Below are positions 44,532 to 63,821 of a DNA stretch of 64,000 bases, piece after piece; position 1 is the stretch's first letter; each line of letters starts with the position of its first letter. The stretch is taken from positions 27,987-91,986 of the forward strand of contig LMSR01000004.1 in the NCBI GenBank assembly GCA_001429555.1. Reading direction: 5' to 3'. The notes under the pieces were generated by a model. It made no database searches. It saw only the letters and a list, made by a program, of their open reading frames with translations, and had not been told where the DNA came from. Position numbers and translations under genes: made by a program. Source of the DNA: Nocardioides sp. Soil797. Its GTDB lineage: Bacteria > Actinomycetota > Actinomycetes > Propionibacteriales > Nocardioidaceae.

Positions 44532-45065
44532 TCATCCCGGCGCGGTCCAGTCGGCGCGCTCCACGAACGCGAACTGCGCCGTCTTGTCCGGCAGCTCGGC
44601 CCGCGGGCCACGGCTGGCCTGCAACCGGTTCATCAGGCTGAGCGACTTCTCGTTGCGTACGTCGGGCTCGAGCACGATCCGTTGCACCGACGGGTCGGAG
44701 AACACCCACGAGGCCAGGTGTGAGAACAGCGCCTGGGAGAAGCCGTCCGGGCGACGCCCGGGCCCGATCAACAGGTGGACGCCGACGTCACCGGGCCGGC
44801 GGTCGTAGAACTGTCCGATCTCGTCGACCGCCGGGTCATAGGTCTGGAACAGCGCTCGCGGTTCGCCGTCCCAGCAGACCAGGTGGGCGGAGAGGTGCTC
44901 CTGCTCGTCGATGTAGGTGTAGATCTCCTCCACCTCCTCGACAGAACGCTCGAGCATCCCCCAGAACCGGGCTCGTTCCTCGGTGACCCATCGGTGCAGC
45001 ATCGCGGAGTCGGTGGCCGGGACCACGGGGCGCAGCACGAGGTGCGGGTTCAGCGTCGCCTTCAT
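44532..45065 (-). CDS. Siderophore-type GNAT acyltransferase, last gene of the des operon
   Basis: 177 aa. Belongs to the acetyltransferase group that acylates hydroxylamines in hydroxamate siderophores (RhbD/IucB/AlcB-like): LVLRPVVPATDSAMLHRWVTEERARFWGM at the start, DVGVHLLIGPGRRPDGFSQALF, and VQRIVLEPDVRNEKSLSLMNRL. Its ATG overlaps the acylase stop by 4 nt (45062-45065). It is a second enzyme of this type in one operon; the first (48896-49429) occupies the standard desC place. A different acyl chain or a different amine may be its substrate. Confidence 0.82.
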   Translation of the reverse strand: MKATLNPHLVLRPVVPATDSAMLHRWVTEERARFWGMLERSVEEVEEIYTYIDEQEHLSAHLVCWDGEPRALFQTYDPAVDEIGQFYDRRPGDVGVHLLIGPGRRPDGFSQALFSHLASWVFSDPSVQRIVLEPDVRNEKSLSLMNRLQASRGPRAELPDKTAQFAFVERADWTAPG

Positions 45066-47092
45066 CGAACTTCTTCTCCTGTGGTCCGGGCCTGCTCGCG
45101 CAGCTGGTTCCAGTCGGTGGTGACCGCGATCAGGTCGCCGGTCTGCCAGGCATCGAACTGGTCGACCTGGTGGGGGTGGCCGGGAACGCCGCTGCTGCCC
45201 AGCGGGACCGCCCAGCGGCTCCGGTCGCGATCGGCCAGGTCCCAGACATAGCGGGCGACCGGGCCACGCACTGCGCTGTCGGTGCCGGGGATCCAGCCGT
45301 TTGCCGCGACGGCATTCGCGTCACCGGGCAGCGGCTCACCGGCCACCGGGACGATGTCGTCGTCCAACCCGAACTGGGCCAGCCCCGTCAGTGGGCCGAA
45401 GCCGTGCCGCGCACCCCAGGGACGTGCGTCACCGGCTGCCGCGTCGAGCGCTGCGCCCAGGAGGGACGGCAGGTCGAGGCCCAGCTCGTGACCGTGCTCG
45501 AGCAGCTGAGGCAGCGACTGGCCCACGCGCGTGGGGACCGAGAGCCAGGGCCGATACATCTCGCCGTGGCTGTCGGCATCGGCCACCTGCTGCAACGGCG
45601 CGCTCTGGCAGACCTGGTGGACCAGCTGCTCGCGGACCGCGTTGAACACGGCAGCGCCGGGGCTGTCCACCGCCATGTCGAGGTCCCAGGTGGCGAGCGT
45701 GCTGCGCAACAACTCGGCGGTGGGGGCCAGCTTCGGCAGTGCGGCGATGGCCGCCAAAAGTGCCTCGGCGCCGAGCTGCCGGGCATCGGTCAGTGGGCGG
45801 ATGGCGTCGTCGGCGGTCCAGTCGGCGCGTTCGTCGAGCAGCTCGGTGATGCGATCGGCCCGCCAGGACTCGGCGAAGTGGCTGCCGATCGCGTCGTACG
45901 CCGGGGTGGTGCGGTCGTTGGCCGTGACCACGTGTCCCCGGCCACCGGGATCGATGACCGGCATCTCCTCGACCCAGCCGGTCCAGGTGTGCGTGGCATC
46001 GGCGGCAGGCACGATGCCGAACCGGTTCGACAGGTCCCGGGTGGGGACCTTGCCGGCGACCCGGTGCCGCACCAATCCGGTGGAGTCGGCGACCACCCAG
46101 TTGTTCAACGGTTCCACCCAGTGCGCGAGGGCCGCCTCGACGTCGACGACGCTGCGGGAACGCAGCAGTGGCAACAGGGCACCGAAGCCGAGGTCGCCCA
46201 GGGCATGGGAGGCGGTGCGCAGGGAGATGGGCTGGTCGTCGAAGACGATGGGGCCACGCTCGGTGACGACGACGTCGATCATCTCAGGCTCGTCGTCGAG
46301 CAGGTCGATGGTCTCCTCACGGGTCTCGACCGCCTTCCAGCCGTCAGGACCGAGCGCGCACAGGGTGCCGTCGCGGACCTCGAGCTGCTCGGCGTAGAGG
46401 TCCTGGTAGTCGCCCATCGCATTGGTCAGGCCCCAGGCGACTGAGCCGGTGTGCCCGAAGTGCTGGACGCCCGGCACCCCGGGGAACGTGAAGCCGACGA
46501 CGTCGAATTCGGGGCAGGCCAGGTGGGTCTGCAGATAGACGTTGGGTGACTCGAAGAGCCGGTGCGGATCGCCGGCCACGATCGGAGACCCGGTGGCGGT
46601 GCGGTCCCCGGTCAGGGCGAAGGCGTTGGAACCGGCGGCCCCCGGCGGCGCGACCGAGAGAGCGCGCAGCCCGGCGCGGCCGAGTCGACGTGCGACCCGG
46701 TCGCGCCACAGCTTCGAAGGGTAGGAGCCGAACTGCACCTGCTGGACCAGGAAGACGCCGAGGGGAGTCCAGGGCATCCAGCGCCGGTCGCGGAAGGCCA
46801 CGTTGATGCCGTCGGTGAAGGCGACCAGGAAGTCGCGGGTCTCGTCGTCGACGGCGTCGTAGGCGCGCTGGGCCAGCGCATCGATCCCGGCTCGGCGTGA
46901 GAAGCGGTCCCATTCCAACCCGTTGCGGCCCAGGTGGGCCGCCGTACGGCCTTCGCTGCGCAGCCGTTCGAGCTCCATCTGACCGGCACGGGCCTCGACC
47001 ATCTCGTGGCCCTGGGCAAAGGCCAGCTCCTCGAGGGAGTCGGCCCTGATGTGTGGGATCCCGTGGGAGTCGTGGATGACCTCGGAGCTCAT
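45062..47092 (-). CDS. Penicillin-acylase-family Ntn hydrolase in the des operon
   Basis: 676 aa from ATG 47092 (MSSEVIHDSHGIPHIRADS, the usual family start; a start at 47179 would overlap desD by 50 bp). Autocatalytic processing would expose Ser155 in GAAGSNAFAL as the N-terminal nucleophile of the beta chain, leaving an alpha chain of about 150 aa. The TGSVAWGLTNAMGDYQDLY segment is typical. There is no signal peptide, in contrast to PvdQ and most penicillin acylases, so it should act in the cytoplasm. Acyl removal from, or exchange on, a hydroxamate intermediate is the likely task. Penicillin-amidase genes near des clusters are recalled from the literature. Confidence 0.85.
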   Translation of the reverse strand: MSSEVIHDSHGIPHIRADSLEELAFAQGHEMVEARAGQMELERLRSEGRTAAHLGRNGLEWDRFSRRAGIDALAQRAYDAVDDETRDFLVAFTDGINVAFRDRRWMPWTPLGVFLVQQVQFGSYPSKLWRDRVARRLGRAGLRALSVAPPGAAGSNAFALTGDRTATGSPIVAGDPHRLFESPNVYLQTHLACPEFDVVGFTFPGVPGVQHFGHTGSVAWGLTNAMGDYQDLYAEQLEVRDGTLCALGPDGWKAVETREETIDLLDDEPEMIDVVVTERGPIVFDDQPISLRTASHALGDLGFGALLPLLRSRSVVDVEAALAHWVEPLNNWVVADSTGLVRHRVAGKVPTRDLSNRFGIVPAADATHTWTGWVEEMPVIDPGGRGHVVTANDRTTPAYDAIGSHFAESWRADRITELLDERADWTADDAIRPLTDARQLGAEALLAAIAALPKLAPTAELLRSTLATWDLDMAVDSPGAAVFNAVREQLVHQVCQSAPLQQVADADSHGEMYRPWLSVPTRVGQSLPQLLEHGHELGLDLPSLLGAALDAAAGDARPWGARHGFGPLTGLAQFGLDDDIVPVAGEPLPGDANAVAANGWIPGTDSAVRGPVARYVWDLADRDRSRWAVPLGSSGVPGHPHQVDQFDAWQTGDLIAVTTDWNQLREQARTTGEEVR

Positions 47093-47129
47093 GCGTTGGC
47101 CCTCACGATGGTGGAGGGCGAGGCGATGT

Positions 47130-48899
47130 TCATCCTCCAACCGTTCCAGCACCCACCGGATTGGCCAACTCCCCGGCAAACATCAACGACGAGGACTGAT
47201 CGGCCAGGTCGACCATCTGCAGGGTGTTGCGCAGCTGAAGGCGGTTCAGGCAGCTGTGCCGGAAGGTGGGCCGCAGCAGGTCGTGCCTCGCGGCGGCCTC
47301 CGCCAGCTCGGGGTGGTCGGCGAGGTGACGGTCGAGGCAGGCACGCACCTCGGCCCAGAAGTCGGCCTCCGCGAGAACGCCGTCGTCGTCGAGCACGGCG
47401 GCGAGGTGCCGGAAGAACCCGTCGAAGACATCGGTGTGGATTGCCAAGGACTGCTCCTCGACCGGCACCGCGGCGCGGATCCGCTCCACGGCGGCCGGCA
47501 GCGGCAGGTCGCCCATCACCGCCACCTCCTCGCCGATGTCCTTCATGAACATCGCCACCGGGGTGTGGTCGCGCAGGACCATGACGAGGTTCTCGCCGTG
47601 CGGCATGAACGCCAGGTCGTAGCGGAGCAGGCAGTGCACCAGCGGCCGCAGGTAGGCATCGAGGTAGCTCCCCAGCCAGGCCGCGGCAGTCAGGCCGGAA
47701 CGGGCGATCATCGCGGCGACGAGCGAGGAGCCCTTGGCATCACGGTGCAGCAACGATGCCATCGTGGCCAGTCGCTCACCTTCCGCGAGCCGGGGCGCCG
47801 GGCTCTCGCGCCAGAGGGCCGCGAGCATCTTCTGGTAGGGAGAGGCGAAGCCCAGGGCATGGAAGGCGTCGCCGGTGTAGCCGATCGCAGCACATTCGCG
47901 CAGCACCCGGAAGCCTCGCGCGACCAGCTCCTCGTCGGCCTCGACCAGGTCGTGCACCCAGTCGTTGATTGCCGGCGTGACCGACATGTAGTTCGGGGAC
48001 AGCCCCCGAAGGAAGCCCATGTTCTGGATCGCCAGCGCGGTCTTCACGTAGTGCCGCTCCGGCGCGCTGGTGTTGAAGAACGTGCGGATCGACTGCTGTG
48101 CCCGGTAGTCGTCGTCGCCCTCGCCGAGGAACACGATGTCGTGGCGGGCCACGTCGGGTGCGAACGTGATCGTCACCCGGTTGACCCACTGCCACGGGTG
48201 CAGGGGGAGCCAGAGATAGTCGGCCGCGTCGAGCCCGAGGTCGGCCAGTCTCTCGGTGAATCGGCGCACGGTCTCGTCGCCGAGCTCACCGCCGTAGAGG
48301 TCGTCCTCGGAGATTCCGGCGCTGAGAGACAGGGCGGCCAGCGAGCGGCGTACCGCCACCCAGACCAGGCGCACGGGGCTCCCCGTCTCCGGGGCGTACG
48401 CCGCGAAGTCGTCGCCGCCGAAGCCGATCCGGCCGTTGTTGGCCACGAACGCCGGATGTCCCTCCGTCATCGCCGCCTCGACCGCCTGGTAGTCGGCGTC
48501 CACCAGATCCTCGACCGTCGCGGTGGAGTGCGCGAGCTTCCACGCCGCGGAGGCCAGGGTGCTGGCCAGCTCCTCGAGGTAGGTGGGCAGCAGGCTGTCG
48601 GGAATCCCCAGCAGTGGCGCGAACTCGACCAGGAACCGCTGGACGTCGAGCGGCTGCTCCCGTTCGTCGATCGTGCGCACCAGCGAGTCCCGATCGAGGC
48701 TCCAGTGCTCGAGGGCGTGCCGACGGGCGGCGAACGCGTAGCGCACCGAACCGTCGGGGGAGACCAGCTCGAAGCCGGTTCCACGTGGAACCGGCACGAG
48801 CAACCGCTCGTGTGAGAACTCCGCAATCGCCTTGCAGACAAGGGATCTCTGTGCGGCGGCGAGGTTCTCCGGGCTCAGGTGTGTGACGTCGACGCTCAT
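47130..48899 (-). CDS. desD: Desferrioxamine synthetase (IucA/IucC family)
   Basis: 589 aa NIS (NRPS-independent siderophore) synthetase that joins N-hydroxy-N-succinyl-cadaverine units using ATP and cyclises the product. The IucA/IucC catalytic part spans about 100-400 (EGHPAFVANNGRIGFGGDD, WLPLHPWQWVNRV, TFFNTSAPERHYVKTALAIQNMGFLRGLSPNYM), and the FhuF-like C-terminal part about 420-589 (HCLLRYDLAFMPHGENLVMVLRDHTP). ATG at 48899 overlaps the desC-like stop by 4 nt. Length and motifs match Streptomyces DesD. Its 3' end is 37 bp from the acylase start. Confidence 0.92.
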   Translation of the reverse strand: MSVDVTHLSPENLAAAQRSLVCKAIAEFSHERLLVPVPRGTGFELVSPDGSVRYAFAARRHALEHWSLDRDSLVRTIDEREQPLDVQRFLVEFAPLLGIPDSLLPTYLEELASTLASAAWKLAHSTATVEDLVDADYQAVEAAMTEGHPAFVANNGRIGFGGDDFAAYAPETGSPVRLVWVAVRRSLAALSLSAGISEDDLYGGELGDETVRRFTERLADLGLDAADYLWLPLHPWQWVNRVTITFAPDVARHDIVFLGEGDDDYRAQQSIRTFFNTSAPERHYVKTALAIQNMGFLRGLSPNYMSVTPAINDWVHDLVEADEELVARGFRVLRECAAIGYTGDAFHALGFASPYQKMLAALWRESPAPRLAEGERLATMASLLHRDAKGSSLVAAMIARSGLTAAAWLGSYLDAYLRPLVHCLLRYDLAFMPHGENLVMVLRDHTPVAMFMKDIGEEVAVMGDLPLPAAVERIRAAVPVEEQSLAIHTDVFDGFFRHLAAVLDDDGVLAEADFWAEVRACLDRHLADHPELAEAAARHDLLRPTFRHSCLNRLQLRNTLQMVDLADQSSSLMFAGELANPVGAGTVGG

Positions 48900-49429
48900 G
48901 CGGTCGCTCCCATCCGGGCTGCGGCATGGGCGCTCCGGGTGCAGAAGGACAGTGCCGCCGTCTTGTGGTGGAGGTCGACCTCGCGCGCGACCACGAACCC
49001 AGCCGCGGCGTTGAGCGAGGCGATCTTCCCGTTGCGCACGTCGGGTTCGACGACCACGCGCTTCACCGACGCATCCGCGAAGCAGAAGTCCATCACCGCC
49101 GCGAACACCGCCGTGGTGAACCCGGCACGGTGCGTCTTCGGTGGTGCCACCAGGACGTGCATTCCGAGGTCTCCCTCTGTGATCTCCGGGAGGCCCGCCA
49201 GCGGTCCGTGACGGGGGTCGTAGGTCTCCACGAGGAACTCGGGCTCGCCATCGGCTCGTCCCAGCCACGCATGGTGGTGCGGGTCGGCCGCGATCGCGGC
49301 GTACTCGCGGGCCACCTCGACCGTGGTGGCGCCCTGCATCTCCCAGTAGACCGAGCGGGGATGGGTCACCCAGGTGTGCAGGAGCGTGAGGTCGCGCTCC
49401 ACGTCGAGGGGTTCCAGGGTCAGTCTCAT
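48896..49429 (-). CDS. desC: Desferrioxamine acyltransferase
   Basis: 177 aa GNAT-fold enzyme of the siderophore acyltransferase group: LEPLDVERDLTLLHTWVTHPRSVYWEMQG, DLGMHVLVAPPKTHRAGFTTAVFAAVMDF, and VVVEPDVRNGKIASLNAAAGF. In the des pathway it acylates N-hydroxycadaverine with succinyl- or acetyl-CoA, and homologues accept several acyl donors. Start and stop overlap desB and desD by ATGA (49426-49429 and 48896-48899), so the product ratio is translationally coupled. It is the desC position in the operon. Confidence 0.88.
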   Translation of the reverse strand: MRLTLEPLDVERDLTLLHTWVTHPRSVYWEMQGATTVEVAREYAAIAADPHHHAWLGRADGEPEFLVETYDPRHGPLAGLPEITEGDLGMHVLVAPPKTHRAGFTTAVFAAVMDFCFADASVKRVVVEPDVRNGKIASLNAAAGFVVAREVDLHHKTAALSFCTRSAHAAARMGATA

Positions 49430-50778
49430 CGGCCACTCCCGCCGGGCTGCGTCCTCAGGTGGTCGGGGACGCCGAAGTCCTGGAAGGCGATGCGCTTCTC
49501 CACCGGATAGACCTCGCGCCCGAGCATCGCCGCGATGATCACGGAGTTGCGGTGGGCGCCCATGCCCAGGTCGGGTGCCACGAAGCCATGGGTGTGCTCC
49601 TCGGCGTTCTGCGCGAAGATCTCGCTGCCGTTGTGGTCGATCGCGTAGTGCGCGTCGGCCAGGAAGCGACGGTGGTCGTCCCAGCGGATCCGGTCGCGGA
49701 TCGGGGAGAGGAACGCCGGCACCTCACGGCGGTAGCCGGTGGCGAAGACCAGGCCCTGCGTGTCGAGGGAGAAGTGCTCGTCCTGCTCGACGTGGTGCAG
49801 GTCGAGGCGTACGCCGTCCGGCGTGAGATCGGCGCCCGTGACCGCCGTGTTCGTGACGAGAGTGGTCCGGGTGTCTCCCTGCACCTCGCGACGGTAGAGC
49901 TCGTCGTAGATCTGGTTGATGACGTCGCCACTGATGCCCTTGTAGAGCGAGCGCTGATCGCGCAGCAGGGTGTCGCGGGTCTCGGCCGACAGCTCCTGGA
50001 AGTACGCCGTGTACTCCGGCGAGGTCATCTCCAGGGTCAGCTTGGTGTATTCCATCGGGAAGAACCGGGGTGACCTGGTCACCCAGTTCAACGTGTAGCC
50101 GTGCTGGTCGATGTCGGACAGCAGGTCGGCGTACACCTCGGCAGCGCTCTGGCCACTGCCCACGACGGTGATCGACTCCAGCTGCTGGAGCTCGGCCCTG
50201 TGCCTCAGGTAGTCCGCCGAGTGGCAGGTGACCCGCGAGGGATGAGGAAGGTGCTCCGCGCCCGTCTCGAAACCCCCGCAGCTCGACTCCGCCCCGCGCC
50301 CGAGCACCCCGCGCGCCACCTCGGGCACGTACGGCTGGGTGCCGGTGCCGAGCACCAGCCGTCGGCCGCGGTGCACCTCACCGCCGGCGGTCGTGACGGC
50401 GTACGCCGTGCCGTCGTGCTCGACGCGCGCGGCGGGCGAATCGAAGCGCACCGAGTCGAGGCGTTCGGCGGCCCAGCGGCAGTAGTCGCTGAACTCGCGT
50501 CGCAGGGGGTAGAACGACTCGCGGATGTAGAACGGATAGAGCCGCCCGATCTCCTTGAGGTGGTTGAGGAACGTGAAGCGCGACGTGGGGTCGGCCATGG
50601 TCACCAGGTCGGCCATGAACGGCACCTGGAGCGTGGCGTCGTCGAGCAGCATGCCGGGGTGCCAGTCGAAGTGGGGGCGTGCCTCGAGGAAGACTCCGTC
50701 CAGATCCTCGATCGGGTCGGTGAGCGCGGCCAGGCCGAGGTTGAACGGGCCGAGGCCGATGGCGACGAAGTCCTTCAT
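49426..50778 (-). CDS. desB: Cadaverine N-monooxygenase
   Basis: 450 aa flavin-dependent N-hydroxylating monooxygenase (lysine/ornithine N-monooxygenase family). FAD motif VAIGLGPFNLGLAAL (5-19), substrate-region LQVPFMADLVTMADPTSRFTFLNHL, NADPH motif ITVVGSGQSAAEVYADLL (about 195-212) and the ATGY motif in GLVFATGYRREVP. It hydroxylates cadaverine at the terminal amine. Overlaps its neighbours on both sides by ATGA. No membrane segment; cytoplasmic. Confidence 0.92.
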   Translation of the reverse strand: MKDFVAIGLGPFNLGLAALTDPIEDLDGVFLEARPHFDWHPGMLLDDATLQVPFMADLVTMADPTSRFTFLNHLKEIGRLYPFYIRESFYPLRREFSDYCRWAAERLDSVRFDSPAARVEHDGTAYAVTTAGGEVHRGRRLVLGTGTQPYVPEVARGVLGRGAESSCGGFETGAEHLPHPSRVTCHSADYLRHRAELQQLESITVVGSGQSAAEVYADLLSDIDQHGYTLNWVTRSPRFFPMEYTKLTLEMTSPEYTAYFQELSAETRDTLLRDQRSLYKGISGDVINQIYDELYRREVQGDTRTTLVTNTAVTGADLTPDGVRLDLHHVEQDEHFSLDTQGLVFATGYRREVPAFLSPIRDRIRWDDHRRFLADAHYAIDHNGSEIFAQNAEEHTHGFVAPDLGMGAHRNSVIIAAMLGREVYPVEKRIAFQDFGVPDHLRTQPGGSGR

Positions 50779-52229
50779 CGGGCGGCCCCCATCAGCATCT
50801 CTGCGCCGGTGCTCCGGATCTGGTCGACGATGCCGAGGACGTCGGTGGCCCGCGCGAGAGGGTTCAGCAGCGTGAACTTCAACCACACCTCGCCGTTGAC
50901 CTTGGTGGAGGCCACCATCGATCGACCGTCGGCGAAGAGGGCCGACCGGATCCGGGTGTTGTGCTCGCTGACCCGGCCGGCGTCCATGCCCACCGGGCGG
51001 TGCCGGAAGACCAGGGTGCTCAGGGTGGGAGCCGCCGCCATTTCGATGTCGACGCACTGCGTCATGGCATCGTGCACCTGCGCGGCCAGGTCGATGACCG
51101 AGTCGAAGTAGTCACCGATCCGGTCGGGGCCCATGATCCGCAGGGTCAGCCAGAGCTTGAGCGCGTCGAAGCGGCGGGTGGTCTGCATGGACTTGTCGAC
51201 CTGGTTGGGATGCGCGGCGTCCTTGGGGTTCAGGTAGTCGGCGTGCCACGTGACGTGGCTCAGGGTCTCGGCATCGCGCACGATGATCGCGCTTGCGGAG
51301 ACGGGCTGGAACCAGGTCTTGTGGTAGTCGACGGTCACCGAGTCGGCCCGCTCGATGCCGTCGAGCAGGTGTCGGCGACGTGTCGAGGCGAGCAACCCAC
51401 CGCCGTACGCCGCATCGACGTGGAACCACGTCGCATAGGCACGGCACAGGTCGGCGACCTCGGGCAGCGGATCGATGGCGCCGAAGTCGGTGGTGCCGGC
51501 GGTGGCCACCACCGCCATCGGCACCAGGTCGTCGGCGACGCAGGCGGCCAGGGCGTCCGCCAGGGCAGGCGCCTGCATCCGGTGCTGCGCGTCGACCGGG
51601 ATGCACACCACGGCGTCGGAGCCGAGGCCCAGGAGCCGGGCCGCCTTCTGGACGCTGAAGTGGCCGTCGGCGGAGGCGAAGATGCGCAACCGCTCCAGCC
51701 CATGGGACTCGACCCGGCCACGCGCCAGGTGCAGTGCCTGCAGGTTGGACTGGGTGCCGCCGCTGGTGAAGATGCCGTCGGCGCCGGGCCGGTCGGTTGA
51801 TCCCGCCGGGAAGCCGATGCGGGCCGCGGTCCAGTCGACCAGGTGGCGCTCGATGAAGGTGCCGCCGATGCTCTGGTCATAGGTGTCGAGCGACGAGTTC
51901 ACCGACGACACGAACAGCTCGGCGACCAGCGCCGGGATGACGACGGGACAGTTCAGGTGAGCGGCGTACCCGGTGTCGTGGAACCAGACGGCGTCGTCGA
52001 GATAGAGCCGCGACATCTCCTCGAGGGCGGCCGAGGTGTCGCCGAGGGGCGCATCGAGGTCGACGTCGGCCACGAGCTTGGCGGCCTGCTCGGGGGCGGT
52101 ACCGTTCGACGGCCCGTTGACGGCGCGCAGCTGCCGGGAGAGGTGGTCGATGCCGGTGAGCAACGAGGTCACCCAGGCGTCGGAGTTGACCGGGTGGAAC
52201 AGGTGGTGCGCGGAGGCTGATTGGGTCAC
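50775..52229 (-). CDS. desA: Lysine decarboxylase of desferrioxamine synthesis
   Basis: 484 aa PLP-dependent group II decarboxylase. PLP lysine K304 (DYHKTWFQPVSAS), Asp272 in WFHVDAAYGGGLL, and GGTQSNLQALHLAR for phosphate. It converts lysine to cadaverine, the first committed step. First gene of the operon; GTG start at 52229 has GGAG about 8 nt upstream and the iron box 20-38 bp upstream, so transcription should be repressed when iron is plentiful. The similar diaminobutyrate/glutamate decarboxylases are a possible alternative, but the desBCD neighbours decide the call. Confidence 0.92.
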   Translation of the reverse strand: MTQSASAHHLFHPVNSDAWVTSLLTGIDHLSRQLRAVNGPSNGTAPEQAAKLVADVDLDAPLGDTSAALEEMSRLYLDDAVWFHDTGYAAHLNCPVVIPALVAELFVSSVNSSLDTYDQSIGGTFIERHLVDWTAARIGFPAGSTDRPGADGIFTSGGTQSNLQALHLARGRVESHGLERLRIFASADGHFSVQKAARLLGLGSDAVVCIPVDAQHRMQAPALADALAACVADDLVPMAVVATAGTTDFGAIDPLPEVADLCRAYATWFHVDAAYGGGLLASTRRRHLLDGIERADSVTVDYHKTWFQPVSASAIIVRDAETLSHVTWHADYLNPKDAAHPNQVDKSMQTTRRFDALKLWLTLRIMGPDRIGDYFDSVIDLAAQVHDAMTQCVDIEMAAAPTLSTLVFRHRPVGMDAGRVSEHNTRIRSALFADGRSMVASTKVNGEVWLKFTLLNPLARATDVLGIVDQIRSTGAEMLMGAAR

Positions 52230-58632: not shown

Positions 58633-61600
58633 GTGACCCTCGCTCCGTCGACGCTGCTGCCGGCCCTGATGGCGGGCCAGAAGGCACCCGCTCCGCGCAC
58701 CCTCGTCGACATCTTTCGCGCGACGGTGTCCCAGCACCCCGACGTTGCGGCCGTCGACAGCGGCCTTGCCACACTCACCTATGCCGAGCTCGCCGAGGCC
58801 GCTGACGACCTCGCCGATCGCCTGGCCGAGCTCGGGGTCGGCCCCGGCGACAAGGTCGGCGTCCGCATCAAGTCGGGCACCACCGACCTCTATGTCGCGA
58901 TCATCGGGATCCTGGTGGCCGGCGCCGCCTACGTGCCGGTCGACGCCGACGACCCCGACGAACGGGCCCGGGTCGTGTTCGGTGAGTCGCACGCGGTGGC
59001 GGTCATCGGCAACGACCTCGTCATCTCCGCGACCCCTGCAGGTGCCGGCCGCGCCCCGAGCGAGCGGGTCGAGCCCCGGCCCGAGGACGACGCCTGGGTC
59101 ATCTTCACCTCGGGCTCGACCGGCAGGCCCAAGGGCGTGGCGGTCACCCACCGCAACGCCGCGGCCTTCGTCGACGCCGAGGCGGCGATGTTCCTCGTCG
59201 ATGACCCGATCGGGCCCGACGACCGCGTCATGGCCGGGCTCTCGGTGGCCTTCGACGCCAGCTGCGAGGAGATGTGGCTGGCCTGGGCGTACGGCGGGTG
59301 CCTGGTGCCGGCGCCCCGCTCGCTGGTGCGCTCGGGGGTCGACGTCGGGCCCTGGCTGGTCGCCAACGAGATCACCGTCGTCTCCACGGTGCCGACCCTG
59401 GTCGCCCTCTGGCCCGGCGCTGCCCTCGACAAGGTGCGGCTGCTGATCATGGGCGGGGAGGCCTGCCCCCCGGAGCTGGCGGCCAGGCTGCAGGGTGATG
59501 GCCGCGAGGTGTGGAACACCTATGGCCCGACCGAGGCGACGGTGGTGGCCTGCGGCGCGCTGCTGGACGGCTCCGACCCGGTGCGCATCGGCCTGCCCCT
59601 CGACGGGTGGGACCTGGCTGTCGTCGACGCCAAGGGCAACCCGGTCGCGGAGGGAGAGTCCGGTGAGCTGATCATCGGCGGCGTCGGGTTGGCGCGCTAT
59701 CTGGACCCGGCCAAGGACGCCGAGAAGTACGCACCCATGCCGAGCCTCGGCTGGGAACGGGCCTACCGATCGGGCGACGTCGTACGCAACGACTCGGCCG
59801 GCCTGGTCTTCGCCGGCCGGGCAGACGACCAGATCAAGCTCGGTGGGCGGCGCATCGAACTCGGCGAGATCGACGACGCGCTCCTCGGCATCCCCGGCGT
59901 CGTCTCGGCCGCCGCGGCCGTGCGCTCGACCAAGTCCGGCAACAAGCTGCTGGTCGGCTACCTGACCACCGACGAGCGCTACGACCCCACCGCGGCGCAG
60001 GAGTTGTTGCGGCAGCGGATGCCGGCCGCCCTGGTGCCGCGCTTGGCCGTCGTCGACGCACTGCCGACACGCACCTCCGGCAAGGTCGACCGCGACGCCC
60101 TGCCCTGGCCGTTGCCCAAGCAGAGCTCGGCGCCCGTCGCCCTGAGCGGGACGTCGGCCTGGATCGCGGAGATCTGGAACGAGGTGCTCGGCGCGGAGGT
60201 CGACTCCGCCGCTGACGACTTCTTCGCCTTCGGAGGCGGCTCACTGACCGCCGCCCAGGTGGTCAGCCGCTTGCGCGAGCGCTTCCCCGAGACGGCCGTC
60301 GGTGACATCTATGCCCACCCCAAGGTCGGCACCCTGGCCGCTGCGCTCGACGAGATGGGCGAGTCGAGCAGCGCAATGAAGTCGGACCGCAAGATCCTGC
60401 CGATCCCGCGCAAGACCCAGCTGGGGCAGCTTGCCGCCCTGGTGCCGCTGCGAGCACTGGCCGGGTTGCGTTGGCTGAGCTGGCTGATGCTCGGGTCCAC
60501 CGTCGCGGCGGGAGTCGTCGACCTGCCCTGGTTGCCGACGTACCCGATCTGGCTGTTGATCCTGACCACCTGGTTCTTCCTGTCGCCACCCGGCCGGATG
60601 ACACTCGCGGCCGTGGCGGCGCGGGTGATCCTCGCTGGCGTCGAGCCCGGTGAACACCCGCGCGGCGGCCGGGTGCACCTGCGGTTGTGGCTGGCCGAGC
60701 GCGTCCAGGACGGGCTGGCCGCGGCCGGGCTGGCCGGTGCCCCGTGGTTCCCGTACTACGCACGGCTGCTCGGGGCGAAGGTCGGCAAGGGTGTCGACCT
60801 GCACACCCTGCCGCCGGTGACCGGCCTGCTCGAGGTCGGCAAGCACGCGGCGATCGAGCCCGAGGTCGACCTGAGCGGCCACTGGATCGACGGCGACGTG
60901 GTGCACATCGGTCGCATCATCATCGGTGCCCGGGCCAGGATCGGTGCCCGCAGCATGCTCGGCCCGGGTGCGGTGATCGGCAGGGACGCCGAGGTCGGAC
61001 CGGGCTCCCACGTGGTCGGCGACGTTCCCGACGCCGAGTTCTGGTCCGGCTCGCCTGCCGAGCGCCATGCCGCGGCCCGCGGCCCGTGGTCGACGAGGCA
61101 GGCACCCGCCGAGACCGCCTGGCTCGGTGCGTACGCCGCCATCTCGTTCCTGATCGCCTCACTGCCGGCACTGGCCGTGCTCGCCGGCACCGCAGTCCTG
61201 CTCCCGGCACTGGGTGGCACCGAATCGCTCGGTGGGGCCCTGGGTGCCGTCCTGCCCTGGTTGCCCCTCGCAGCGCTCGTCGGGTACGCCGTCCTGGCGC
61301 TGCTGGTGGTCGCCATGGTGCGGGTGTTGGCGTTGCGGGTCAGCCCGGGCCACCACCCGGTGCGCTCGGCAGCGGGGGTTGCGATCTGGGGCACCCTGAG
61401 GGTTCTCGACGAGGCTCGCGACTGGTTGTTCCCGATCTACTCGAGTGCATTCACGCCCACGTGGTTGCGGCTCCTGGGTGCCCGGATCGGGACCGGCGTG
61501 GAGGCGTCGACGGTGCTGCTGATCCCGAAGCTGGTGCACGTCAACGACCACGCCTTCCTCGCCGACGACACCCTGATCGGCTCCTACGAGCTCGGTGGCG

Positions 61601-62520
61601 GGTGGATCCGGGTCGAGCACGTCAAGGTCGGCAAGCGCGCGTTCGTCGGCAACTCCGGCATGCTCGCGCCCGGCCGTCGGGTTCCCAAGAAGTCGTTGGT
61701 GGCGGTGCTCTCGGCCGCGCCCGGCCGCGCCGTCGCGAAGGCCGGCACCTCATGGCTGGGCAGCCCGCCCCGCAAGCTGCGTCGTACGGCTGGAAGCGAC
61801 GACAGCAGTCGTACCTACGACCCGCCGACGCGACTGAAGGTGCTGCGCGCCCTGGTGGAGCTGTGCCGTGGCGTGCCGCTGCTGATCGGCATCGGGCTGT
61901 ACGTCGCTGCCGCGGCGCTGATGGTTGCGTTGCTCGATCTCCATCTCTGGTTGGCGATTCTGCTCTGCGGGCCGGTGCTCTCCCTGAGCAGCATCACTGC
62001 CGCACTGATCACCGTCGCCGCCAAGTGGCTGCTGCTCGGACGCCACCGACCGGGTGATCACGAGCTGTGGACCTCGTTCGTGTGGCGCAACGAGCTGGCC
62101 GACACGTTCACCGAGATGCTGGCGGCTCCGTGGTTCGCCCGCCACACCGCGGGAACCGTGACGCTCAACGTCTGGCTACGCCTGATGGGCGCGAAGATCG
62201 GGCACGGGGTCTGGTGCGACACCTACTGGCTGCCCGAGACCGACCTGGTCGAGGTGCACGACGGCGCCACCGTCAACCATGGCTGTGTCGTGCAGACCCA
62301 TCTGTTCCACGACCGGGTGCTCAGCATGGACAAGGTGGTGCTCAGCGCCGGCGCCACCCTCGGGCCGAACAGCGTGATCCTCCCGGCGGCGACGATCGGT
62401 CGGCACGCGACCGTCGGCCCCGCGTCGTTGGTGATGCGCGGCGAGGGCGTACCGTCGCGCACACGCTGGATCGGGAATCCGATCGGGCCCTGGGAGGAAG
62501 CAGAGGAAGAAGACGCGTGA
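58633..62520 (+). CDS. Pls-like single-module NRPS (epsilon-poly-lysine-synthetase type)
   Basis: 1295 aa from GTG 58633 (AAGAAT box 6 nt upstream). Order: adenylation domain (about 20-500; TSGSTGRPKG at 159, FDASCEEMW at 207, NTYGPTEAT, GRADDQIKLGGRRIE), thiolation domain with phosphopantetheine Ser537 (FAFGGGSLTA), six TM helices (about 605-655, 829-902, 1072-1133) alternating with three tandem acetyltransferase-like soluble domains (about 680-815, 905-1055, 1138-1295). That is the domain order of epsilon-poly-L-lysine synthetase. No condensation or thioesterase domain is present. The binding-pocket code read by hand is D208-A209-E212-T255-I272-G274-T296-V304-V305-K484 (DAETIGTVVK); E212 suits a basic side chain. 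The stop overlaps the M1 peptidase gene. Confidence 0.88.
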   Translation: MTLAPSTLLPALMAGQKAPAPRTLVDIFRATVSQHPDVAAVDSGLATLTYAELAEAADDLADRLAELGVGPGDKVGVRIKSGTTDLYVAIIGILVAGAAYVPVDADDPDERARVVFGESHAVAVIGNDLVISATPAGAGRAPSERVEPRPEDDAWVIFTSGSTGRPKGVAVTHRNAAAFVDAEAAMFLVDDPIGPDDRVMAGLSVAFDASCEEMWLAWAYGGCLVPAPRSLVRSGVDVGPWLVANEITVVSTVPTLVALWPGAALDKVRLLIMGGEACPPELAARLQGDGREVWNTYGPTEATVVACGALLDGSDPVRIGLPLDGWDLAVVDAKGNPVAEGESGELIIGGVGLARYLDPAKDAEKYAPMPSLGWERAYRSGDVVRNDSAGLVFAGRADDQIKLGGRRIELGEIDDALLGIPGVVSAAAAVRSTKSGNKLLVGYLTTDERYDPTAAQELLRQRMPAALVPRLAVVDALPTRTSGKVDRDALPWPLPKQSSAPVALSGTSAWIAEIWNEVLGAEVDSAADDFFAFGGGSLTAAQVVSRLRERFPETAVGDIYAHPKVGTLAAALDEMGESSSAMKSDRKILPIPRKTQLGQLAALVPLRALAGLRWLSWLMLGSTVAAGVVDLPWLPTYPIWLLILTTWFFLSPPGRMTLAAVAARVILAGVEPGEHPRGGRVHLRLWLAERVQDGLAAAGLAGAPWFPYYARLLGAKVGKGVDLHTLPPVTGLLEVGKHAAIEPEVDLSGHWIDGDVVHIGRIIIGARARIGARSMLGPGAVIGRDAEVGPGSHVVGDVPDAEFWSGSPAERHAAARGPWSTRQAPAETAWLGAYAAISFLIASLPALAVLAGTAVLLPALGGTESLGGALGAVLPWLPLAALVGYAVLALLVVAMVRVLALRVSPGHHPVRSAAGVAIWGTLRVLDEARDWLFPIYSSAFTPTWLRLLGARIGTGVEASTVLLIPKLVHVNDHAFLADDTLIGSYELGGGWIRVEHVKVGKRAFVGNSGMLAPGRRVPKKSLVAVLSAAPGRAVAKAGTSWLGSPPRKLRRTAGSDDSSRTYDPPTRLKVLRALVELCRGVPLLIGIGLYVAAAALMVALLDLHLWLAILLCGPVLSLSSITAALITVAAKWLLLGRHRPGDHELWTSFVWRNELADTFTEMLAAPWFARHTAGTVTLNVWLRLMGAKIGHGVWCDTYWLPETDLVEVHDGATVNHGCVVQTHLFHDRVLSMDKVVLSAGATLGPNSVILPAATIGRHATVGPASLVMRGEGVPSRTRWIGNPIGPWEEAEEEDA

Positions 62521-63821
62521 GGAAAGCCGGCACCGACAGCTATGTTCCCGGGCACGGAGACGCGTCGTACGACGTGGAGCACTACGGGCTGGCGCTCGCC
62601 TACAAGCTGATCGGCAACCGCATCGACGGTGACGCGACCCTGCGCTGCCGGGCGAACGTCGACGTCACCTCTCTCGGTGTCGACCTGCACGCCCTGCGCC
62701 CGGCCAAGGTGTTCGTCGACGGCAAGGCGGTCAGGTTCACCCACCGGCACGCGAAGATCGAGGTGAAGCTGGCCACGCCGATCAGTGCCGGCACCCCGTT
62801 CGAGGTCCGGGTGAAGTACGCCGGCAGCCCGCGCCCGGTGCCATCGTCGACGCTGGGCACCTCGGGGTGGGAGGAGCTGGCCGACGGTGCCATCGTCGCG
62901 GCCCAACCGCACGGCGCCCCGTCGTGGTTCCCCTGCAACGACCGGCCCGACAACAAGGCGACCTACTCCGTCGCGGTGTCCGCACCCTCCGACTACCACG
63001 TCGCGGTCTCAGGTGAGCTGGTCTCGAGCAAGCGCAGCGGCAGTTCGACCACGTGGCTCTACGAGCAGGGGGTGCCCATGCCGACCTACCTCGCGACGGT
63101 GCAGATCGGGCGCTACGAGGTGACCGAGCTCAAGTCCGACGTGCCGATGCGAGTGATCGCCCCGGCCGACCGTGATGCGGCTGCCTTCGACGCCAGCTTC
63201 GGGCAGCAGCCGAAGATGATGGCGTTCTTCACCAAGCTCTTCGGCGACTACCCGTTCGCGTCGTACACCGCGGTGATCACCGACGACGATCTCGAGATTC
63301 CCCTTGAGTCACAGGGCCTCTCGACCTTCGGGCGCAACTTCATCGACGACGACTGGGACGCCGTGCGCCTGATTGCGCACGAGCTCTCCCACCAGTGGTT
63401 CGGCAACGCGGTGACGCTGACCGAGTGGAAGGACATCTGGCTGCACGAGGGATTCGCCTGCTACTCGGAGTGGCTGTGGTCGGAGGAGATCGGGGAGAAG
63501 TCGGCCGACGAACGAGCCGCCCATCACCACAGGAAGGTCGCCGAGGATGACGGGCCCGACCTCGTGCTCGGCGCTCCCGGGGCAGACCTGATGTTCGACG
63601 ACCGGGTCTACAAGCGCGGTGCGCTCACCTTGCACGCGCTGCGCAGCGAGGTCGGCGATGAGGTGTTCTTCGAGATCCTGCGAACGTGGATCGCCAAGCA
63701 CCGTGGGGAAAACGTGACCACGGAGCAGTTCGTCGCGCACGTCGCTGAGGTGGTCGGCCGCGACCTGCAGCCACTCTTCGACGCCTGGCTCTTCGAGGTC
63801 GAGTTGCCCGACCTGCCCTAG
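62517..63821 (+). CDS. M1 family zinc metallopeptidase coupled to the Pls-like synthetase
   Basis: 434 aa from GTG 62517, overlapping the synthetase stop by 4 nt (GTGA). Gluzincin zinc site H288-E289-x-x-H292 (HELSHQWFGNAV) with the second glutamate E311 (LHEGFACYSEW), HExxHx18E as in M1. The exopeptidase GxMEN motif is not present; the equivalent stretch is LESQGLSTFG. No signal peptide is visible, so it is cytoplasmic. It lacks the large helical C-terminal domain of full aminopeptidase N. As the partner of a poly-amino-acid synthetase it may trim or degrade the polymer, giving self-protection or length control. Confidence 0.88.
   Translation: MRKAGTDSYVPGHGDASYDVEHYGLALAYKLIGNRIDGDATLRCRANVDVTSLGVDLHALRPAKVFVDGKAVRFTHRHAKIEVKLATPISAGTPFEVRVKYAGSPRPVPSSTLGTSGWEELADGAIVAAQPHGAPSWFPCNDRPDNKATYSVAVSAPSDYHVAVSGELVSSKRSGSSTTWLYEQGVPMPTYLATVQIGRYEVTELKSDVPMRVIAPADRDAAAFDASFGQQPKMMAFFTKLFGDYPFASYTAVITDDDLEIPLESQGLSTFGRNFIDDDWDAVRLIAHELSHQWFGNAVTLTEWKDIWLHEGFACYSEWLWSEEIGEKSADERAAHHHRKVAEDDGPDLVLGAPGADLMFDDRVYKRGALTLHALRSEVGDEVFFEILRTWIAKHRGENVTTEQFVAHVAEVVGRDLQPLFDAWLFEVELPDLP

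Follow-up and report, generated by a model that had tools for sequence, protein, structure and literature searches.

A gene for a predicted cationic-polymer synthetase in Nocardioides sp. Soil797 overlaps a gene for a zinc peptidase, which raises the question of what polymer is made and on which side of the membrane the peptidase would meet it. The two genes lie in a 64,000-nucleotide stretch of contig LMSR01000004.1 (assembly GCA_001429555.1), here called the window, whose numbering we use throughout. We propose, with a probability of about 0.6, that they encode an ε-poly-L-lysine synthetase (Pls) and a dedicated polymer-cutting peptidase of the M1 family, which would be cytosolic as it lacks an export signal. 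What we read from the sequence is the domain architecture, the identical pocket, the overlap of the genes, the absence of a signal, the altered motif, the joint occurrence of the two genes and their places in the trees; from these we infer the substrate, polymer, sidedness, cutting activity and purpose.

ε-Poly-lysine is an industrial preservative, while its natural role has been called less well understood (PMC8117764). In Streptomyces albulus, pls is translationally coupled to the peptidase gene pldII that lies 3′ of it (PMC9223678). PldII is located outside the membrane (PMC9223678, PMC9205021) and is thought to guard against polymer there; repression of pldII led to longer chains, of more than 40 residues, and to dissolving cells (PMC9223678). 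Our proposal would question this accepted role of the coupled peptidase beyond S. albulus-type producers. The family, the operon, the likely product and the coupling are already known. In the open-licence literature that we searched we found no account of the change of side that our sequence comparisons suggest for the closely paired peptidase in most Pls-bearing lineages examined, no discussion of the membrane side of Pls-coupled peptidases across lineages, and no ε-poly-lysine product of Nocardioides.

The synthetase and its substrate

The open frame of the synthetase was confirmed by re-reading the window. Translation could start at the GTG at 58633 or the ATG at 58669, because by eye neither is preceded by a clear ribosome site; the latter gives the length of database entry P0003, 1283 residues. 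A sigma-70 promoter scan found no match (0.4 expected). The protein scores 674.6 bits against NCBIfam TIGR02353 (NRPS_term_dom, Pls/PosA), whose curated cut-off is 423.1, and the family match is therefore not due to chance. Pfam (E ≤ 0.001) finds AMP-binding, PP-binding and hexapeptide-repeat domains and one sub-threshold β-helix family, and neither a condensation nor a thioesterase domain. The adenylation (A) and thiolation (T) domains are followed by three soluble domains and six transmembrane (TM) helices in three pairs, the helices being taken from a predicted model. This is the Pls-type domain order already recognized by the original prediction, and the Asp and Glu typical of the Pls/PosA family at code positions 1 and 3 are present as D208 and E212, the latter being the pocket glutamate that had been pointed out. 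The top named database matches to residues 1-600 are Nocardioides proteins with 85-86% identity, and no second Pls scores above the cut-off in the same genome.

The nearest solved structure to the A domain is the S. albulus ε-poly-L-lysine synthase 7wew (E 1.2e-185; 62.6% identity over 473 aligned positions), and the pocket codes of the two enzymes, DAESIGTVVK, agree in all ten letters. The code had been read before as DAETIGTVVK, which was right in being of the lysine type and wrong in its fourth letter: pocket position 278 is Ser251, and the T is the residue next to it. The residues that contact lysine in the S. albulus structure (D213, E217, S256, T301 and K495; review PMC11253843) correspond one to one to D208, E212, S251, T296 and K484 in the window. 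The choice of substrate length has been ascribed to the second code letter, which is Ala for lysine (PMC10522769). Among 198 aligned sequences, 7wew and the window protein included, 197 share DAESIGTVVK; the remaining one differs in its fifth letter, with V replacing I. In the A-domain tree, which holds one confirmed Pls (7wew), the window falls in the same large group as S. albulus Pls, and synthetases with a DFE code stand apart (support 100). Because the pocket is identical to that of the solved S. albulus enzyme, L-lysine is very likely the substrate of the window synthetase. A lysine-like substrate had been forecast, and both the tree and the five conserved contacts bear this out; neither outcome that would have spoken against it appeared, the code being neither neutral nor acidic in the comparison with 7wew and the A domain not falling with an unrelated branch. 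The claim that the strain would be a new source is weak as news, because Pls of the window type is widespread. Among the 147 genomes of the genus, 62 encode one, and at least 591 of 595 pattern-matched stretches in a species collection encode a Pls relative.

A coupled peptidase without an export signal

The peptidase starts at the GTG of the GTGA that overlaps the synthetase stop, in the manner foreseen from the sequence. Both M1 domains are present and the zinc site is intact (HELSH-x18-E, of the form HExxH-x18-E). Its nearest solved structure is the two-domain M1 zinc peptidase PDB 6a8z (E 2.8e-58), presumably from Deinococcus radiodurans, in which the motif aligned to ESQ of the window reads ETA; we know of no link between 6a8z and a Pls. 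The genome has six M1-family genes in all. Hydropathy and reading of the N-terminus revealed no signal peptide or TM segment, and the 28 codons upstream of the start are hydrophilic (hydropathy -0.64). The protein thus shares with PldII the coupling of a zinc peptidase to a pls gene, but not, as far as sequence tells, export outside the membrane, and it has ESQ in place of ENQ. Because the export feature is absent we do not file it as PldII, although it may work like PldII despite the different predicted location.

We read N-termini and motifs at 111 adjacent loci, of which 21 are of the S. albulus type and 90 are others (the window, 80 named relatives and nine from g25, a Streptomyces-like genus). 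All 21 S. albulus-type peptidases have the ENQ motif and a twin-arginine-like [ST]RR before a hydrophobic stretch (best 15-residue hydropathy 1.36-2.47). A strict signal flag with a hydropathy limit of 1.4 passed 19 of them; the remaining two (L161, 1.36; L174, 1.37) carry the same RR motif. The other 90 peptidases all lack a signal (hydropathy at most 1.08) and have E[SA][QAH] at the motif, and the 19 peptidases read in another genus, g135, all belong to this signal-less kind too (maximum 1.17). All 11 paralogs read bear signals, ten judged by hydropathy and L194, of the window's own genome, by eye. The alignment of motif and zinc site (A2) excludes row L143, which was out of frame. PldII was compared by the locus nearest to S. 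albulus (L160, 94% in the Pls A domain) and not by its own sequence; the L160 peptidase is of the exported kind, in agreement with the reported location of PldII outside the membrane (PMC9223678, PMC9205021).

The two kinds also separate in trees. In the A-domain tree, which contains no peptidase, a branch with support 100 sets the loci with the signal-less kind apart from all others; with the DFE-code rows as root, the exported kind makes up the remainder and is not a single clade. S. albulus Pls, which resembles the window enzyme in its pocket, A domain, published domain order and downstream peptidase gene, lies across this branch. In both M1 trees the signal-less and the exported kinds form separate clades (support 98 and 97 for the former, 100 for the latter), and the paralogs fall outside. 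These were quick trees with Shimodaira-Hasegawa-like approximate likelihood ratio test (SH-aLRT) support only; the 80 named loci were thinned to 27 in the A-domain and first M1 trees and to 16 in the second M1 tree. The A-domain tree omits L139, L147 and L148, and the M1 trees omit L147. Since all 11 paralogs carry signals and the types split on single branches, loss is the simpler direction of change, and the signal would have been lost once, on one branch.

Co-occurrence of synthetase and peptidase

An M1 gene lies downstream of Pls in all 80 named relatives, which are the best 80 of the 591 and so favour near kin. In 75 of them it begins within 105 nucleotides (nt) of the Pls stop. The other five, from Tsukamurella and Williamsia (L035, L041, L042, L038 and L063), have gaps of 613-2154 nt, and at two Tsukamurella loci an open reading frame (ORF) judged by eye to be acetyltransferase-like lies within the gap. 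Within the window's genus a close M1 gene (53-100% identity) stands beside Pls in 61 of the 62 Pls-bearing genomes versus none of the 85 Pls-free ones, where M1 matches are at most 40% identical. In 58 of these pairs at most 102 nt separate the M1 gene from the Pls match, and in three the distance is 827-881 nt; in the single Pls-bearing genome without it (G128) the Pls match is 801 nt from a contig end.

The association extends to genomes in which the two genes lie apart. In g135, whose genomes are of 2.0-3.6 Mb, Pls was found in 105 of 141 genomes, M1 in 102 and both in 101, so that 101 of 105 Pls-bearing genomes have the peptidase versus one of the 36 others. Only four of the 101 pairs are adjacent; 53 are on one contig at a distance of at least 37 kb and 44 on different contigs (97 not adjacent). 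In three of the four Pls-only genomes (G1164, G1191 and G1261) every Pls found is of a second type (46-47% identity, code DAESIG[TS][VI]IK), and the fourth (G1253) is 77% complete, as is the sole M1-only genome (G1239). Codes were obtained at 22 g135 loci, 12 of the primary type, all DAESIGTVVK, and ten of the second type (L216-L223, L234 and L235; 45-48% overall, with the code given above).

Thirteen of the first 20 g25 loci have a lysine code, and 12 of these have M1 alongside. Four have the DFE code and none of them an M1 gene, with only about 400 nt of contig downstream in one (L146). The letters at the other three are DIWQSTADDK. Two of the three are split systems, and at one of these two an M1 gene of 31% identity lies about 2 kb upstream. 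Extended by 20 further loci, chosen by A-domain similarity and without single reading of their codes, the g25 set has M1 beside Pls in 30 of 33 lysine-type loci. That Pls and the other synthetases differ in gene context has been reported before (PMC8117764). The split systems (L147, L148 and many further matches) have an ORF of about 890-995 residues that holds the polymerisation half only and adjoins an adenylation ORF with the code-like letters DIWQSTADDK. Beyond the two genes the neighbourhood is not conserved: the commonest neighbour family occurs in 20 of 81 loci.

Membrane arrangement and a candidate joining centre

A structure model of residues 585-1295, built from 31 sequences (mean predicted local distance difference test score 83.4; predicted template modelling (TM) score 0.88), has six long helices (593-628, 639-666, 829-860, 866-900, 1080-1103 and 1105-1134) that form three hairpins alternating with three β-helical parts. 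The same arrangement, three β-helices over six helices, was modelled earlier for PosA, the δ-poly-L-ornithine synthetase of Acinetobacter baumannii, a member of the same family that differs in its code (DMEHNGTVSK) and in its single-gene operon (PMC10522769). The hairpin loops are of 10, 5 and 1 residues and contain no Lys or Arg, and, averaged across the 31 sequences, the outer flanks have net charges between +0.5 and +2.6. By the positive-inside rule for membrane topology, all soluble domains of the synthetase are therefore predicted to face the cytosol, as the use of ATP also requires. The signal-less peptidase is predicted to be on the same side as these catalytic domains.

Residues invariant in all 31 aligned sequences, which include two DFE-code members and one sequence from a split system, comprise D978, N1007, E1154, E1202, Q1221, H1223 and D1227 among others. 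In seven non-lysine-type sequences of a wider set, one of which (L139) looked misaligned, D978 is kept in 7/7, H1223, Q1221, E1202, E1154 and N1007 in 6/7, and D1227 in 5/7. We propose that the joining (polymerisation) centre is in the third soluble domain, C3, because H1223, the one histidine shared by all 31 aligned sequences, lies there. The proposal rests on conservation because the resemblance of the fold to left-handed β-helix acyltransferases is partial (best template modelling score by target 0.56 among the matches listed); a profile search with the C-terminal half also picks up hexapeptide proteins.

The role of the peptidase

These results suggest the following scheme. The A domain would activate L-lysine with ATP and load it on the T domain; the three β-helical domains, probably through the conserved His/Glu/Gln/Asp cluster of C3, would link lysines via the ε-amino group; and the chain would leave through the hairpin bundle. 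The co-translated peptidase would hydrolyse chains released into, or remaining in, the cytosol, which would prevent build-up of the polycation and keep net output and chain length in check. That the peptidase might detoxify the product had been suggested before; the lack of an export signal sharpens this, since polymer in the cytosol becomes the predicted target. Cytosolic chain hydrolysis is the most likely role, with length control a close rival.

Such a cutter would fit published results with Corynebacterium variabile, another genus in which Pls and a peptidase gene share one operon, as in the window. The C. variabile pls gave ε-poly-L-lysine of 26-35 residues in S. coelicolor, which has no pls of its own, and neither C. 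variabile itself nor C. glutamicum supplied with the gene yielded detectable polymer (PMC8117764). Hydrolysis in the cytosol would be one reason for the missing polymer. In our genome survey the C. glutamicum control genome encodes a Pls-family protein above the cut-off.

Several points weigh against cytosolic hydrolysis as the explanation. The promoters, too, differed between these hosts, and silence is not explained by hydrolysis alone, since S. albulus mutated in both pldI and pldII remained without polymer at neutral pH (PMC9205021). Signal absence was judged by hydropathy and N-terminus reading rather than by a trained predictor, only 19 of the 102 g135 peptidases were read, leaderless export of the peptidase is possible, and the change to E[SA][QAH] could have altered its substrate. 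Three of the 33 lysine-type g25 loci (L138, L172 and L176, of the S. albulus-like group) have no M1 gene beside Pls, and the co-occurrence counts are uncorrected for relatedness of the genomes.

The alternative that survives best, though we hold it to be unlikely, is that the peptidase acts as a factor in processing or release, setting polymer length by cutting the chain as it grows on the synthetase, and is not a safety enzyme. Its predicted position on the side of the catalytic domains and the close pairing in g135, even where the genes lie apart, would suit such a factor, as would the longer chains seen upon pldII repression (PMC9223678). However, PosA released 7-12-mers in vitro without a peptidase (PMC10522769), and the chains made in S. 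coelicolor from the C. variabile gene were also formed without one (PMC8117764).

We consider it improbable that the window holds an ordinary Pls-PldII pair, the peptidase being exported without a classical signal and protecting against secreted ε-poly-lysine as in S. albulus. The two genes do match pls-pldII in their order and translational coupling (PMC9223678), and the M1 domains and zinc site match the two-domain gene found at that place in S. albulus-like genomes. Yet none of 109 loci of the window type (the window, 80 named, nine g25 and 19 g135) has a signal, whereas the exported sister group (21/21) and the paralogs (11/11) retain theirs. Another polymer (of β-lysine, ornithine or diaminobutyrate) or a mixed peptide is highly improbable, for although the code does not fully discriminate among cationic substrates, the published ornithine code (that of PosA) and β-lysine code (DGESISVVNK) differ (PMC10522769), all ten pocket letters are those of the solved lysine enzyme, and the DFE-code synthetases form a separate clade.

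Cytosolic hydrolysis, our preferred reading, could be widened, in a form that is quite unlikely to hold as a whole: in most Pls-bearing actinobacteria ε-poly-lysine might be an internal polycation, made and dismantled at the cytosolic face by Pls and its signal-less M1 partner, a lysine counterpart of polyphosphate or cyanophycin turnover and not a secreted antibiotic; its use as a secreted antibiotic by the S. albulus group would go with the exported peptidase.

Feature coordinates and neighbouring genes

Table 1. Features of the synthetase-peptidase locus in window coordinates
Feature	Position	Strand	Evidence
Pls/PosA-family synthetase, 1295 residues from GTG (or 1283 from ATG 58669)	58633..62520	+	frame, NCBIfam, Pfam
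Adenylation domain, residues 14-496; 63% identity with PDB 7wew, the S. albulus ε-poly-L-lysine synthase	58672..60120	+	
Lysine pocket span, D208 A209 E212 S251 I272 G274 T296 V304 V305 K484	59254..60084	+	
Thiolation (PP-binding) domain, residues 510-572	60160..60348	+	Pfam
TM hairpin 1, residues 593-666	60409..60630	+	model
Soluble domain C1, hexapeptide repeats	60631..61116	+	Pfam, model
TM hairpin 2, residues 829-900	61117..61332	+	model
Soluble domain C2; D978 (61564-61566) and N1007 invariant in 31-sequence alignment	61333..61869	+	
TM hairpin 3, residues 1080-1134	61870..62034	+	model
Soluble domain C3; E1154, E1202, Q1221, H1223, D1227 invariant (31 sequences); candidate polymerisation centre (inferred)	62035..62517	+	
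GTGA overlap, synthetase stop/peptidase start	62517..62520	+	
Two-domain M1 zinc peptidase, 434 residues, PF17900 and PF01433; no signal peptide or TM segment found	62517..63821	+	Pfam
Motif E264-S265-Q266, replacing ENQ of exported relatives	63306..63314	+	
Zinc site H288-E289-L-S-H292 ... E311	63378..63449	+	

About 6 kb from the Pls gene, a siderophore-type cassette occupies positions 47130-52229 of the minus strand and may also consume lysine. It consists of an IucA/IucC protein with FhuF (47130-49436), a lysine/ornithine N-monooxygenase (49426-51057) and a pyridoxal phosphate-dependent decarboxylase (50775-52229), and by gene content we take it to be desferrioxamine-like. A penicillin-amidase-family protein (45062-47179, minus strand; PF01804, 476 bits) adjoins the siderophore genes.

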